Shown here: one piece after another, positions 2,603 to 8,735 of the stretch
How positions within the stretch are numbered: position 1 is the stretch's first letter
How the letters are laid out: each line of letters begins with the position of its first letter
Assembly (NCBI GenBank): GCA_027592755.1
Contig: JAQCLE010000001.1
Coordinates: forward strand, 1-64,000
Direction: 5' to 3'
Length of the DNA: 64,000 nt
Source: Bacteroidota bacterium
GTDB lineage: Bacteria > Bacteroidota > Bacteroidia > Cytophagales > Cyclobacteriaceae
Translations under genes and position numbers: made by a program
The notes under the pieces: generated by a model
Databases searched by the model: none
Seen by the model: the letters and a program-made list of their open reading frames with translations, nothing else
What the model was told of the DNA's origin: nothing

Positions 2603-3484
2603 TCAAATAGGCACATTCACATGCCTCTCCGCATGATATGACGAACGCACCAGGGGGCCAGACTCTACATACTTAAGTCCTCGTTTCAAACCTTCTTCTT
2701 TATAGGCGGCAAATTGATCCGGATGTATAAATTCTGCCACCTCAAGGTGCATTTTTGTGGGTTGCAGGTATTGCCCAAGGGTAAGAATATGCAAACCATG
2801 GGCTACAAGGTCATCCATGGCTTTATGCACCTCATCCTGAGTCTCTCCAATTCCAAGCATTATTCCTGATTTGGTTCGTTTCCCGGCATCATTCGTGCGT
2901 TGAGTTTGTTCAAGGCTTCGTTCATATTTGGCCTGAGGCCTTACACGCCGGTAAAGGCGCTCTACCGTTTCCATGTTATGAGACACCACTTCCTGTCCAG
3001 CATCAATTATCCGATACAGGGCATCCCACTTGTTTTTAACATCCGGAATTAAAGTTTCAATAGTTGTTTCGGGAGAAATCTTTTTCACTTCAGTAACTGT
3101 CTGGTACCAAATTTCGGATCCACGGTCTTTAAGTTCGTCTCTATTGACTGAGGTAATTACCGCATGTTTCACGCCCATCAGTTGGATCGCTTCAGCGACT
3201 CTTTTAGGTTCTTCTTCGTCATATTCTGGTGGACGGCCTGTTGCAACGGCACAGAAAGTACAGCTTCGGGTGCAAACATTTCCGAGGATCATAAAAGTAG
3301 CCGTTCCTTCACCCCAGCACTCACCCATATTGGGGCAATTCCCGCTTTCACAAATTGTATGGAGCTTGTATTGGTCTACCAATTGGCGAACCCTCTTAAA
3401 GTTCTCGCCAACGGGAAGTTTTACCCTCAGCCAGTCAGGCTTAGTCCTTTTAGGTTTTACTGAAACAACCGGAAGCTCAATCAT
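2603..3484 (-). CDS. lipA: Lipoyl synthase
   Basis: This radical-SAM enzyme inserts two sulfur atoms into octanoyl groups on the E2 and GcvH proteins, producing lipoyl cofactor. I start at [10 protein letters not shown] (293 aa); an upstream in-frame extension of 17 residues looks unrelated to the family. The auxiliary cluster is [12 protein letters not shown] (Cys45, 50, 56) and the radical-SAM cluster is CTRSCTFC (Cys71, 75, 78). [11 protein letters not shown] near the C-terminus contains the conserved RSS motif that holds the auxiliary cluster. It converges on the sulfatase with only a few bases between stops. The fused E1 2-oxoacid dehydrogenase about 3 kb away on the same strand belongs to a lipoate-dependent complex. 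Confidence 0.96.
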
Positions 3485-3543
3485 AAAAAAAATCTTTAAC
3501 ACGAATTTGTCATCCGATGCTTCGGATCGAGACATTATTGGAA

Positions 3544-3692: not shown

Positions 3693-4418
3693 TTATCTCC
3701 TTGTGCCGTAGTAAAGTGTGAGAAAAGCTGAAGTGAAGAACTTATGGTTCTTTTCAGCCGGTATTAGACAAATAAGGTACGTATAAGCTTCAGCGTTTAA
3801 GCCAACTTCGAAGCCTGTAACATTGCTCTTGAATGTACCAAATTCGAAGTTCATTGAGGCTTTTGCATTTACCCCTGGAATTATTGTGGACTTTCCCAAT
3901 CCCTGGAATAATCTACCGGATCCAACAATATTCCGTGCAGTATGCTGTGGATTTTCAGGATCATATTGCTGCCTTAAAACACCATCTCCATTGTTAAAAA
4001 CTACTTCTACAAAATAGGGCGCAAGTATTCCAATGGTTGGGCCTCCCGAAAAACCATAAGTTATTTGAACTCCCTGCTGTGGGGCTTTTTTAAATAATAT
4101 CTTATCAAAACCTGTTTGCAGTCGAATGGCGTAGAGATAATTACTCTTTCCAAAGATGTAGCTGTTTCCGGAATTGGGGGAGGTCCTTCTATCCTCTTTT
4201 GGATGTTTAACATTCATTATCTCAGCTCCAAAAGTGCGAAAAGTGGTGCTGTTTATTGCCCGGCTCTTTTTGACCATAAAACCGCCAATTAAACCCCCAT
4301 TCGTATTTTTGTTTATACCCCAAACGAACTCCCTGGTGTACTCGTAGTTGCCATCGTCTTGCCCAAAGGCAAAAACAAATTTCATGCAGATAACAAGAAG
4401 AAGTAATATCCTTTTCAA
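3693..4418 (-). CDS. Secreted, probable outer-membrane beta-barrel protein of unknown function
   Basis: This 241-residue protein begins with a clear signal peptide (MKRILLLLVICMKFVFAFGQ, cut after FGQ). The rest alternates short hydrophobic and polar strands rich in Gly, Tyr and Phe and ends TLYYGTRR, a typical barrel-like C-terminus. I do not recognise a named domain. Motifs that could help a search are EFVWGINKNTNGG, GFMVKKSR and GFSGGPTIGILAPYF. It sits alone between lipA and ytxJ with about 170-base gaps on both sides, so it is probably transcribed by itself. A small outer-membrane or surface-associated role is inference only. Confidence 0.7.
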   Translation of the reverse strand: MKRILLLLVICMKFVFAFGQDDGNYEYTREFVWGINKNTNGGLIGGFMVKKSRAINSTTFRTFGAEIMNVKHPKEDRRTSPNSGNSYIFGKSNYLYAIRLQTGFDKILFKKAPQQGVQITYGFSGGPTIGILAPYFVEVVFNNGDGVLRQQYDPENPQHTARNIVGSGRLFQGLGKSTIIPGVNAKASMNFEFGTFKSNVTGFEVGLNAEAYTYLICLIPAEKNHKFFTSAFLTLYYGTRR

Positions 4419-4592: not shown

Positions 4593-4988
4593 TTATGCGA
4601 CCTCAATTCTACCCAGATTTTTAGAAAGGCCTTCAAATGAAATGCTGAAATGAGACGCCTCATAGACGCATTTGCCATTTATAACAACGATTATCTGAGG
4701 AGACTGGTGCCATACATTGAGTACCTCTGCTATTTTTTTGGAGACCTCTCTGAAAACAATCAGGTCAAGAAAATAGAGATTCATTTCAGGCAATTCCGAA
4801 TGATTCCAATTTCGTTGAAGCCGATCAAGTACCATTGCACTGGTTCCACACCTGATGCTGTGTTTAAAAATTAGAACGGGGCGGTCGTTTGACTGATCAA
4901 TTATTTGGTCAATTTGTCCAAGCGAGGTCAAATTTATCCAGTCCATAGGAGATTTGTTTTCAGTAGTTGATTGCTTAAATAAGCCCAT
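4593..4988 (-). CDS. ytxJ: YtxJ-like thioredoxin-fold protein (monothiol bacilliredoxin-type)
   Basis: This 131-residue cytosolic protein has the short thioredoxin-like core of the YtxJ family (DUF2847), associated with bacillithiol redox control. The active-site region is FKHSIRCGTS with a single Cys47, followed by YFLDLIVFREVSKKIAE and the cis-Pro-type segment WHQSPQIIVVINGKCVYEASH. YtxJ proteins are proposed to reduce bacillithiol-mixed disulfides, and Bacteroidota commonly carry the bacillithiol pathway. No bshA/B/C gene is in the window. It lies six bases downstream of the repeat protein that starts at 6656, so the two may be co-transcribed. Confidence 0.85.
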   Translation of the reverse strand: MGLFKQSTTENKSPMDWINLTSLGQIDQIIDQSNDRPVLIFKHSIRCGTSAMVLDRLQRNWNHSELPEMNLYFLDLIVFREVSKKIAEVLNVWHQSPQIIVVINGKCVYEASHFSISFEGLSKNLGRIEVA

Positions 4989-4994
4989 TTCGAT

Positions 4995-6656
4995 TCAATA
5001 TGTCCAAATATCACGTTCTTCCTTGTCGTATTTAGTCTTAACCTTGACCTGAGAGCCCTCTGAGGTTTCTTTGCCCGGATTCACCCTTACCCATAGAATA
5101 TTCATTTTCCTCCATCTTTCTTTCCACTGATGATTAGTAAATCTCTTTCCGCTTATATACGCGATCGACGGATGTGGATCTCCACCTTTGTGCTTCTTCA
5201 CCTTTTCTATTCCTTCAAAATCTGCAGTGATAATTGCCTTACCCCTTAAAAAGGCTTTTTTCCCGAGCTCATTTAGTCCAACCGTTCTTCCTTTGTAGCT
5301 ATAATATTCCCAATCTTTAATCTTTTTATAAATTCCAGCGATAAATGGCGCTTTGGCTATCATTAACCCCTCGTCTTGTGCAATATCGTTAGATCTGGTC
5401 TTGAAATAGTATGGCTTACCCCACTTATTCCATCCGACATCGTGGCCTTTATAGCTGCTTCTTTCCCACTGACCAATCCGCTTTTGAATAGCAGCGAGAA
5501 TGGGCACTTTTACCTTTGTATTCCCTCTATAGTCTGATCCAAGCCCGTGAATAGGTTTAAACTGGTCAGCCAACCGACGGTTCATATTATAATCCATACC
5601 GCCGGAAATAGAAAAGTTTTTACGGTCAAATTTTGGGATTAGGGATAATCTGCTTTTTCCATATCTATTGGTCACTTCAAGTTTACTCGGCCTGGCATTA
5701 TCTCTAATTTTAATGTTATGGTCTCCCTGATATACGGTCGTAAATCCTTGCAAAGGTTTCAATTGATCTCTGAATCTGACGTATTTATTATACTCAATTC
5801 CTGCATCAAACTCCATCCCCTTGGAGATCGAAAACCTCCTCCTTGTGACATAAGGAGTCACAAGAGTGAACTTTGGTTTACCAAATAAAAATGAAGCATC
5901 GGGTGTAGGGGGTAGCCTTCGTTTGTTCTTAAGTTGTTCTGCAATTCTCCGTGTAATAAAGTTCTCCTTTACACTTTCTGAATTCCTGGGTTTACCAAAT
6001 TTCCTCTCTCCTTTAAAATTCGGGATCAGCGAGAATTTACCTTTACCATATGAAGGACCTGAAGTCGGAAGAGGAGGATATCGGTTATTATTTCTCTGCT
6101 GTTCGGCGATTCGGCCACTAATAAAATTCTCTCTAACTGGTTTGGAAAAACGAGGTTTAACCTTGTCCTGATTTCCAATATTCGGGATCAGCGAGAATTT
6201 ACCTTTACCATATGAAGGACCTGAAGTTGGAAGGGGCAGATTTCGATTATTACTTCGTAGTTGCTCAGCTATTTTTCGGCTTATAAAATTTTCTTTAACC
6301 GGTGATGAGAAACGAGGAACTACTTTTTTTCCACTGGGGTAACTTACTGGTGCAGAGGTTCGTACAGCCACTTTGTTCTCTTTACTTTTATACTCCACCG
6401 GAAGAGAATATTTTACGTTCACACCCTCTCGTTTGGTGCTTCGTTGATCAATTGTTTTACTCAGCATTACTTTCTTCTGAAAGAATAGAAAGCCTCGTGA
6501 CTCAGTTTTAATGGTATTGAGTTTCCCCCTATCCTCAAGAAGTTGTGCATCTACCTCGCCAATAACATATCCACCAAAGAAGATGATGAAGCAAATGGTT
6601 TTATTAAATGATATGCCCTGTAAATAAGAAAACACCTGTTTTTGTAAAAAATTCAA
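4995..6656 (-). CDS. Secreted basic protein built from three classes of internal repeats, function unknown
   Basis: I do not recognise this 553-residue protein. A membrane-spanning signal sequence ends near VDAQ (residue 38). Residues ~115-250 hold 54-residue repeats, each with F-SxPVxENFIS, R-IAEQ, PLPTSGPSYG and GKFSLIPN. Residues ~275-317 and 348-384 form a second pair (FSISxGM...QFKP...G). Residues ~385-421 and 437-473 form a third pair (SYKGxxVGxNxxGK). The composition is strongly basic and rich in Arg, Lys, Tyr and Pro, with no catalytic motif or sorting domain seen. At DNA level the first repeat is nearly identical at 6022 and 6184, 162 bases apart, suggesting recent duplication. It could be a cell-wall or nucleic-acid binding surface protein, but that is a guess. 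Confidence 0.75.
   Translation of the reverse strand: MNFLQKQVFSYLQGISFNKTICFIIFFGGYVIGEVDAQLLEDRGKLNTIKTESRGFLFFQKKVMLSKTIDQRSTKREGVNVKYSLPVEYKSKENKVAVRTSAPVSYPSGKKVVPRFSSPVKENFISRKIAEQLRSNNRNLPLPTSGPSYGKGKFSLIPNIGNQDKVKPRFSKPVRENFISGRIAEQQRNNNRYPPLPTSGPSYGKGKFSLIPNFKGERKFGKPRNSESVKENFITRRIAEQLKNKRRLPPTPDASFLFGKPKFTLVTPYVTRRRFSISKGMEFDAGIEYNKYVRFRDQLKPLQGFTTVYQGDHNIKIRDNARPSKLEVTNRYGKSRLSLIPKFDRKNFSISGGMDYNMNRRLADQFKPIHGLGSDYRGNTKVKVPILAAIQKRIGQWERSSYKGHDVGWNKWGKPYYFKTRSNDIAQDEGLMIAKAPFIAGIYKKIKDWEYYSYKGRTVGLNELGKKAFLRGKAIITADFEGIEKVKKHKGGDPHPSIAYISGKRFTNHQWKERWRKMNILWVRVNPGKETSEGSQVKVKTKYDKEERDIWTY
6022..6238 (-). repeat. In-frame tandem duplication, 162-base period, inside the repeat protein
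   Basis: The block beginning GGGATCAGCGAGAATTTACC at 6022 recurs at 6184 with only a few substitutions over roughly 55 bases. The offset is 162 bases, exactly 54 codons. A third, more diverged copy is visible only at protein level. The repeat is coding, so it is not a mobile or CRISPR-type element. Confidence 0.85.
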
Positions 6657-6737: not shown

Positions 6738-8735
6738 TTAATAAGCCATGATAGTGTTTATTGCGGCCACTAAGCGCTTTTCTGGTAAGTAGTTCTCTTC
6801 CAAGGATTTGGCAAATGGAACTGGAGTATCAAGTGCTGCAACCCTCATTATTGGTGCATCCAGCGAACCAAAACAATTTTCTGCTATCCACGCAGCAATT
6901 TCTCCACCAATGCCCCCTATAAGGTTATCTTCATGAAGAATAATAACACGACTGCATTTGGAAACAGATTTTCTTACAGTCTCAACATCCCATGGTGCAA
7001 GTGTTCGCAAATCAACGATATCAGCAGAAACGCCATTTTTCTCGAGGATGTTTTTAGCCCATTTGACTCCCATCCCATAAGTAATGATAGATAAATCATT
7101 CCCAGTTGTAACAAGTTTCGCTTTCCCTATTTCGATTGTATAATATTCATCAGGGACATCATCTGTAATTGACCGGTACAGGGCTTTATGTTCAAAAAAC
7201 AAGTATGGATTTGGGTCTTCTAATGCGGCACATAAGAGGCCTTTTGCGTCAATCGGATTTGAGGGATAAACGATCCTTAACCCTGGGGTATGGAAAAACC
7301 AGGCTTCATTACTTTGAGAGTGAAACGGTCCGGCTTGAACTCCGGCCCCTGTCGGCATTCTTATCACCACATCGGCATTTTGGCCCCATCGATAATGAAT
7401 TTTAGCCAGGTTGTTTATGATTTGGTTAAAACCACAAGCTGCGAAATCTGCAAACTGCATTTCAACCATCGATTTAATTCCACTTATCGATAAGCCCAAT
7501 GCAATACCAATAATTGCCGACTCGCATAGTGGGGTATTCCTTACCCGGTCTTTCCCGAAATCCGAAACGAAACCTTCAGTCACTTTGAATACGCCCCCAT
7601 ATTCCGCAATGTCCTGGCCCATCAATACGAGTTCAGGAAACTTTTCCATTGATTGTCGAAGTCCATCACTGATAGCATCAACGAATCTCTTCGAACTCAC
7701 AGGCGGTGTTGGCGGTTGGATTTTTGGGACGTATGGATAAAATAAATCGGCAGCCTCCCGGTCTGTGTCTGCATCAATGGGAGATTCGTTAAATGCAAAT
7801 TTTAAACCAGCTTCAATTTCCTTTTTTATTTTCTCCCGGGTCAATTCAATATTTTGATTGTCAATAACCCCAACAGACAAAAGGTATTTCTCGTAGTTTT
7901 TAATAGGGTCTCTTTTTGACCAGAATCTCATCAGTTCATCAGGAACATATTTGGTCCCTGAAGCCTCCTCGTGACCACGCATTCTGAAGGTCATTGCTTC
8001 AACCAATACAGGTTTTTGTTGCTTTCTTACCTTCTCTGCTATATGTTGTATTTGATGGAAAACTTCAAGGACATTATTACCTTCTATGCGGATTGCCTCT
8101 ATTCCATAACCTGCCCCTTTTTGTGTAAAGCTTCCAATCTTAAATTGTTCAACACTTGGGGTTGAAAGGCCATATCCATTATTTTCAATTACAAAAACGA
8201 CAGGTAAATCCCAGACGGCTGCCACGTTAAGGGCTTCATGGAAGTCTCCCTCACTGGTGCCACCATCGCCGGAAAAAACAAGAGTTGCTTTATTTTCTTT
8301 CTTAAGCTTTGCTGCAAGTGCAATTCCATCTGCCAGGGCTAATTGAGGACCCAAGAGCGAGATCATCCCGACAATCTTTTTCTCTTTTATTCCAAAGTGG
8401 AAGGACCTGTCCCTGCCATTTGTAAACCCTGATCTCTTGCCTTGAAATTGAGCAAATAATCGTCCGAAGTCAACATCACGAACTGTAAAAACGCCCAGGT
8501 TTCGGTGCACAGGCAAAATGTATTCATCCGAATGCATTGCCAGTGCCGCACCGACGGAAACTGCTTCCTGCCCGACACCTGAAAACCATTTACTGATTTT
8601 TCCCTGTCTGAGTAGCACAAGCATCTTTTCTTCAATCAACCTTGGCTTCAGAAGGGCAGTATAAATTTCTTTTAGTTCTTTATCGGAGAGTTTCCTTCGT
8701 TGGTAATCAAAAATGGGCTTTTCGGTGATTGTCAT
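6738..8735 (-). CDS. Fused alpha/beta E1 component of a 2-oxoacid dehydrogenase complex
   Basis: A single 665-residue chain joins both E1 subunits that use thiamine diphosphate to decarboxylate a 2-oxoacid and pass the acyl group to lipoyl-E2. Residues 1-~330 are E1-alpha: VGQEAVSVG near 54-62 and the cofactor motif from GDGGTSEGD (156-164) to ENNGYGLS (184-191). Residues ~345-665 are E1-beta: GQDIAEYGGVFKVTEG, FADFAACGFNQIINNLAKI, and a C-terminal transketolase domain with TYGMGVKWAK and LHEDNLIGGIG. Such fusions are usual in Cytophagales. The family assignment favours a branched-chain or pyruvate enzyme, and sequence reading alone does not settle which. E2 and E3 are not in the window. Confidence 0.9.
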   Translation of the reverse strand: MTITEKPIFDYQRRKLSDKELKEIYTALLKPRLIEEKMLVLLRQGKISKWFSGVGQEAVSVGAALAMHSDEYILPVHRNLGVFTVRDVDFGRLFAQFQGKRSGFTNGRDRSFHFGIKEKKIVGMISLLGPQLALADGIALAAKLKKENKATLVFSGDGGTSEGDFHEALNVAAVWDLPVVFVIENNGYGLSTPSVEQFKIGSFTQKGAGYGIEAIRIEGNNVLEVFHQIQHIAEKVRKQQKPVLVEAMTFRMRGHEEASGTKYVPDELMRFWSKRDPIKNYEKYLLSVGVIDNQNIELTREKIKKEIEAGLKFAFNESPIDADTDREAADLFYPYVPKIQPPTPPVSSKRFVDAISDGLRQSMEKFPELVLMGQDIAEYGGVFKVTEGFVSDFGKDRVRNTPLCESAIIGIALGLSISGIKSMVEMQFADFAACGFNQIINNLAKIHYRWGQNADVVIRMPTGAGVQAGPFHSQSNEAWFFHTPGLRIVYPSNPIDAKGLLCAALEDPNPYLFFEHKALYRSITDDVPDEYYTIEIGKAKLVTTGNDLSIITYGMGVKWAKNILEKNGVSADIVDLRTLAPWDVETVRKSVSKCSRVIILHEDNLIGGIGGEIAAWIAENCFGSLDAPIMRVAALDTPVPFAKSLEENYLPEKRLVAAINTIMAY

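Follow-up and report, generated by a model that had tools for sequence, protein, structure and literature searches.

The exported-type basic repeat protein encoded on the minus strand at positions 4995..6656 of the window (the whole stretch of 64,000 nucleotides that we analyzed), hereafter RPT, belongs to an undescribed and essentially single-copy family that occurs only within its order, probably Cytophagales. The family layout consists of an export signal, a basic low-complexity middle and a conserved tail of ~75 residues (HPS...KYDKKExxIW), and a search of the open-access full-text literature found no description of the protein or of its locus. RPT probably has a role in the cell envelope. 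Tentatively, we read it as an envelope-resident, disordered polycation that may be held by its tail, with repeats that turn over and a charge that is kept.

The open reading frame of RPT has 553 residues, stop included, and its translation start is uncertain between a TTG at 6656, located immediately 3' of a stop codon, and a GTG at codon 8 (6635). The signal peptide region, which was assigned by eye and not by a signal-peptide program, covers residues 1-38 (6543..6656, minus strand as for all features below) and ends with ...GEVDAQ/LLEDRGK. A similar Q[LI][LI] junction is present at the signal end in all ten named relatives, and D..KLKT follows the junction in most of them. RPT has a pI of 10.3 and the top net charge per residue among 59 mechanically chosen, non-overlapping ORFs of at least 150 aa in the window, while Cys is scarce in the family (0-3 in the frames listed). 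The exported-type start, the pI and repeats above chance agree with the sequence-only reading of this DNA, which had described a secreted, basic and repeat-rich protein. We also considered a recently acquired foreign gene, which we rejected on the synteny described below and the normal composition of the gene, in that its GC content is 39.6% (39.5% for the window) and its GC3 lies inside the middle half of the ORFs.

The same reading had recognized no domain in the protein and had proposed a search for known families, and none was found above the curated cut-offs of Pfam and NCBIfam in RPT and ten orthologues. RPT has no match over cut-off in either collection and no PDB sequence match; its Pfam matches to Tudor_5 (18.2 of 31 bits) and Pab87_oct (13.5 of 27) are under the curated cut-off and were rejected. 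The ten orthologues have no match in Pfam, and two of them have NCBIfam matches far under the cut-off; EutJ and ribosomal S8, matched by orthologues at this level, were rejected as well. The family is therefore without a Pfam or NCBIfam entry in the 11 members tested, probably because the middle changes too fast for clustering. Pfam and NCBIfam both include models of the type IX C-terminal sorting domain, and these gave no match in the window protein or the ten orthologues. Substrates of type IX secretion have a conserved C-terminal domain, as stated in a published report (PMC12618676).

The family is found by its conserved C-terminal tail, which comprises residues 480-553 of RPT (HPS...KYDKEERDIWTY; 4998..5219) and fits the pattern HPS...[KR][YF]D.KE..[IL]W. 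In a tail alignment of 29 rows, D, E and W are invariant and HPS is missing from some rows. RPT is single-copy in its own genome, in which there is one further, weak match, located within the RPT gene on the opposite strand. Of 59 genomes searched first, nine matched, namely its own genome, seven with matches starting at residue 413 or later, and G018, whose match (E 0.009) was rejected because the frame looked by eye like that of a sensor histidine kinase. With a profile of the last 75 residues of RPT (A1), the tail was found in 102 of the 148 genomes of the window's family, with one match each except in G127, which has two. Across the order, a broader profile (A2) matched 76 of 341 genomes once each; these span 14 families, and some of the matches are weak. 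In the phylum it matched four of 296 genomes, all four in the window's own family. These counts are lower bounds, since A1 missed one locus (L049 in G010) that a later profile recovered. The named relatives with the locus (10 loci) are Imperialibacter, Ekhidna, Marinoscillum (including the cultivable M. furvescens DSM 4134) and several MAGs labeled Cyclobacteriaceae, Cytophagaceae, Flammeovirgaceae or Bacteroidia. The only congeneric genome searched (G001; 91% complete, 740 contigs) gave no match for RPT, YtxJ or the neighboring barrel; the block may truly have been lost there, or the assembly may have a gap at this place.

Self-comparison of RPT gave a best score of 205, compared with a maximum of 50 over 20 shuffles, so the repeats stand well above chance. 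ENFIS/T motifs occur at residues 122, 176 and 231 (spacing 54 and 55), FSISxGM at residues 275 and 348, and SYKGxxVG at residues 401 and 453. The first motif marks two 54-residue units, unit 1 (PRFSSPVKENFIS...PSYGKGKFSLIPN; 6156..6317) and unit 2 (PRFSKPVRENFIS...PSYGKGKFSLIPN; 5994..6155), and a degenerate third unit (ENFITRR...FGKPKFTLV; 5847..5990). The FSIS module is present at residues 258-317 (5706..5885) and 332-384 (5505..5663), and the SYKG module at residues 383-430 (5367..5510) and 435-482 (5211..5354). The motifs and spacings of the three repeat classes proposed from the sequence are thus real, but the distinctness of the classes was overstated; the ENFIS units and the FSIS pair have YGKxKFSLI-type motifs in common, the FSIS and SYKG pairs have a Y-x-G motif in common, and RPT is for this reason better described as one mosaic than as three independent families.

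At the DNA level only the two 54-codon copies are alike, the third ENFI copy being degenerate. These copies had been called near-identical and taken as a sign of recent repeat expansion, and neither description fits the data. Tandem Repeats Finder reports 1.9 copies of the 162-bp unit. A separate comparison of the copies shows 80% identity over 141 bp, and across their full length 120 of 162 bases (74%) and 39 of 54 residues are identical. Between the copies, dS is 0.83 and dN 0.21, rough values that rest on only 38.5 synonymous sites; on this dS we rejected a recent tandem expansion.

Among relatives, the middle region varies strongly in length and repeat type. Full-length orthologues were available from 73 of the 78 loci, the other five touching an end, and their open frames, counted from stop to stop and possibly shortened by contig ends, range from 185 to 1077 aa with a median of 561. 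In all 73 the middle is net positive, from +0.02 to +0.30 per residue (median +0.16; +0.12 in the window protein). In 300 random pairs drawn from 46 loci, the median identity of the middle was 27%, compared with 25% for a shuffled partner, and it reached 34% in the tail, 45% in YtxJ and 47% in the barrel. The arrays found under the tail include PRYS units, GGGSxSG-WNN units, Y-x-G units and the ENFIS/FSIS units of the window. An excess of [FYW]-x-G motifs is present in 49 of the 73 orthologues and not in the window protein (5 motifs, p 0.34). Crude repeat classes leave 45 of the 73 unclassed, the window protein included, and the class labels need nine changes on the barrel tree, on which 21 of 56 inner branches are open.

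Across genera, repeat number and sequence are not identical in all relatives, and repeat types differ; within genera, open-frame lengths often differ as well, e.g., 500/503/546 and 798/846/880. The two genomes probably of Imperialibacter (G028 and G121), the closest pair of relatives, have equal open frames (592/592) and equal numbers of PRYS-type motifs (13/13; L066 and L117). In the barrel tree the window groups with this pair (95/89), its nearest sampled kin, which has PRYS-type repeats where the window has ENFIS/FSIS units. The window protein and its Imperialibacter relatives have PRFS remnants and an N-terminal LLEDxxKLxT in common, and two PRFS motifs are retained inside the different 54-residue unit of the window protein. 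Because the repeat type differs between the window and Imperialibacter while the counts within the pair are equal, turnover of sequence is more striking than change in copy number. The AlphaFold2 model of RPT is mostly not helical, with a mean pLDDT of 40.3 and a pTM of 0.18, which would fit a disordered chain but is weak in that the alignment had 11 sequences only; such low pLDDT can reflect a poor alignment and not disorder. The only block averaging a pLDDT of 76 consists of ten residues (471-480 in the numbering of the model) in the tail.

The gene usually lies in a block of the order fused dehydrogenase E1, RPT, YtxJ, (OsmC), small outer-membrane barrel and lipoyl synthase, where YtxJ, E1 and lipoyl synthase were named from Pfam and NCBIfam and OsmC from Pfam. 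In the window, the upstream gene is a fused E1 alpha/beta 2-oxoacid dehydrogenase in one ORF (6738..8735), which falls under the pyruvate-specific NCBIfam cut-offs. The proximity to ytxJ that had been noticed from the sequence holds, as the ORF of YtxJ, a monothiol bacilliredoxin BrxC (4593..4988; PF11009 E 9.7e-34, TIGR04019 over cut-off), starts 6 bases downstream of the RPT stop. It is followed by the small outer-membrane beta-barrel (3693..4418; pI 9.6) and lipoyl synthase LipA (2603..3535). The barrel has no Pfam, NCBIfam or PDB sequence match and its model is a beta barrel (pLDDT 83.9, pTM 0.76). By net charge, RPT and the barrel are the two most basic of the 59 window ORFs. The barrel family is present in 306 of 341 genomes of the order, and of 20 regions fetched around the barrel, 17 have it next to lipA.

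We fetched 80 regions, 79 around YtxJ (from 134 genomes with a match) and one (L069) around the RPT gene; four of them (L117-L120) were taken since a congener carried the RPT gene. Together with the window, the 54 regions that have the gene make up 55 family loci. YtxJ is directly downstream in 53 of these, L042 failing the rule though both genes are there, and this synteny is favored by the sampling because all regions but one were taken around YtxJ. E1 is directly upstream in 36 and lipoyl synthase is present in 42, some regions ending early. In 50 of the 55 loci the barrel is encoded on the same strand at a distance of up to 2.5 kb, and 25 have OsmC in the region, on the opposite strand. 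Among the 26 regions that lack the RPT gene, the barrel is near YtxJ in two and near E1 in one, and four of their genomes match elsewhere (G005, G011, G033 and, weakly, G127). No RPT gene was seen in 16 regions around the barrel from genomes without a tail match.

Other places and families provided 23 further loci, i.e., the regions that reached E 1e-4 among 24, with L193 dropped. Here 14 loci have E1 immediately upstream, 10 have YtxJ immediately downstream and 12 have the barrel downstream, and no barrel was found in the fetched part of the other 11. Six of these barrel-less loci lie near YtxJ or E1 (L183, L189, L191, L197-L199), one has E1 2.1 kb away (L182), and the fetched part of the remaining four (L188, L190, L192, L194) showed no block gene. 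RPT is the next same-strand neighbor of the barrel in several loci whose fetched part does not include YtxJ, namely L181, L184-L187, L195 and L200 (26-416 bp), and likewise in L069 and L175; in L186, OsmC lies between the two on the other strand. The block may simply represent conserved gene order.

We also observed other small ORFs close to the repeat gene. Two short, basic, exported-type ORFs occupy the E1-ytxJ slot in three loci of another family (L155, L156 and L157; f13); by eye, one is lipoprotein-like, with a Cys after the hydrophobic start and then GxIPCP, and the other has a signal peptide. In L164 (f5) and L199 (f22), the repeat gene is immediately preceded by a small lipoprotein-like ORF that contains Cys, and the 81 bases upstream of the window RPT gene are too short for such an ORF.

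As RPT has a signal peptide and no type IX sorting domain or lipobox that we could find, we infer that it would be retained in the envelope, most likely in the periplasm or on the outer membrane at its inner face. The failure to find a type IX sorting domain speaks against a site on the surface, although the protein may get there by an unknown route. The middle would be mostly disordered and would work through its bulk properties as a flexible polycation, in which Tyr/Phe and Lys/Arg would be the stickers that bind anionic polymers of the envelope (peptidoglycan, lipopolysaccharide or exopolysaccharide). The tail, with predicted short helices around RKxNIxWxR and KKExxIW, may dock RPT to a specific partner, and the first candidate for this partner is the basic barrel encoded nearby. 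In this reading, the repeats are replaceable spacer and charge units, from which fast turnover with constant charge would follow.

The main rival to an envelope-resident polycation is a surface or matrix adhesin, exported to the surface or the medium, whose basic aromatic repeats would glue cells to surfaces or to an anionic matrix and would diversify in response to ecological pressure or to phages. Consistent with such a protein are the basic repeats, which contain Tyr, Gly and Ser, the turnover of repeat types, the open frames from 185 to 1077 aa in the 73 orthologues and the signal peptide assigned by eye. We nevertheless consider an adhesin rather unlikely, as RPT is a single-copy gene mostly placed in a housekeeping block and not in a variable island, no adhesin domain was found in it, and the type IX C-terminal domain is missing from the Pfam and NCBIfam matches of the window protein and ten orthologues. 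Another possible role is that of an accessory protein in gliding or type IX secretion. Gliders are common in the order, but no type IX domain was found, and the one gliding marker used, GldJ (TIGR03524), matched all of the 148 genomes below its cut-off and had no power to discriminate; we regard this role as highly improbable.

The neighbors offer two more readings. RPT could be a dedicated partner of the adjacent outer-membrane barrel, with the tail plugging, folding or gating the barrel and the disordered middle linking it to peptidoglycan. Their proximity (up to 2.5 kb, same strand) in 50 of the 55 family loci, the presence of the barrel in 12 of the 23 others, the position of RPT as the nearest same-strand neighbor where YtxJ is missing, the shared basicity of both proteins and the resemblance of the barrel model to OmpA, OmpX, Ail and NspA point in this direction. 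However, the barrel is present in many genomes without an RPT match, 11 of the 23 further loci have no barrel in the fetched stretch, and adjacency may reflect the conserved block that also holds lipA and E1, so that a dedicated partnership of this kind seems quite unlikely. The barrel does not need RPT, because it is far more widespread (306 compared with 76 of 341 genomes, the latter a lower bound); for the same reason, and with no barrel found in the fetched stretch of those 11 loci, the case for the barrel as the best partner candidate is only moderate. An accessory role in redox or envelope-stress functions, linked to YtxJ and OsmC, would fit the finding that YtxJ is immediately downstream in 53 of the 55 loci (at 6 bases in the window) and that 25 of the 55 have OsmC on the opposite strand. 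Bacilliredoxins act on cytosolic thiols. The proteins of the RPT family have few Cys (0-3 in the frames listed), the count of 53 is inflated by sampling around YtxJ, and RPT occurs without YtxJ in the fetched stretch of L181, L184-L187, L195, L200 and L069, which makes this reading improbable.

The disordered, tail-held polycation that we prefer has likenesses among known proteins, and an exported low-complexity repeat protein is not new as a kind. RPT resembles type IX cargo and gliding adhesins of the SprB and RemA type in being exported, repeat-rich and length-variable in the same phylum, and differs from them in that it is strongly basic, is mostly encoded in a housekeeping block and has no C-terminal sorting domain that we could find. 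Its short degenerate repeats rich in Tyr, Lys/Arg, Gly and Pro, which are likely disordered, recall cationic Tyr/Lys-rich adhesives and matrix polycations such as mussel foot proteins; RPT is bacterial with a conserved tail and synteny, and we take the likeness as an analogy. By similar analogy, Lpp and TolA, which span the envelope or bind peptidoglycan as spacers, combine a conserved end with periplasmic parts that are elongated or of low complexity, but RPT shows by eye neither a lipobox nor any membrane anchor other than its signal peptide, its model is mostly not helical, and it has no Pfam match to them. For the barrel model, OmpX, OmpA, Ail and NspA are the top Foldseek matches (E 7.5e-5 to 6.6e-4), at ~10% identity and a TM-score of at most 0.59 by target length (12 hits, E <= 0.001) and with no Pfam family, and no role of these proteins is transferable to it.

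What is unusual in the RPT family is the combination of order-wide single-copy occurrence, a mostly fixed locus, a fixed tail and replaceable basic repeats. The neighboring barrel family is also without a Pfam or NCBIfam match, though it is present in 306 of 341 genomes of the order. It is possible, though doubtful, that RPT is a core, vertically inherited envelope component of the Cytophagales in which bulk charge and length matter and not sequence, with a docking tail, swapped arrays and an undescribed barrel partner. If selection acts on charge only, dozens of natural arrays under one tail would show what selection sees, and the length, the charge or the stickers of a disordered envelope protein would become separable properties. 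If RPT is indeed a core component, its family would represent a natural library of interchangeable periplasmic polycation linkers.
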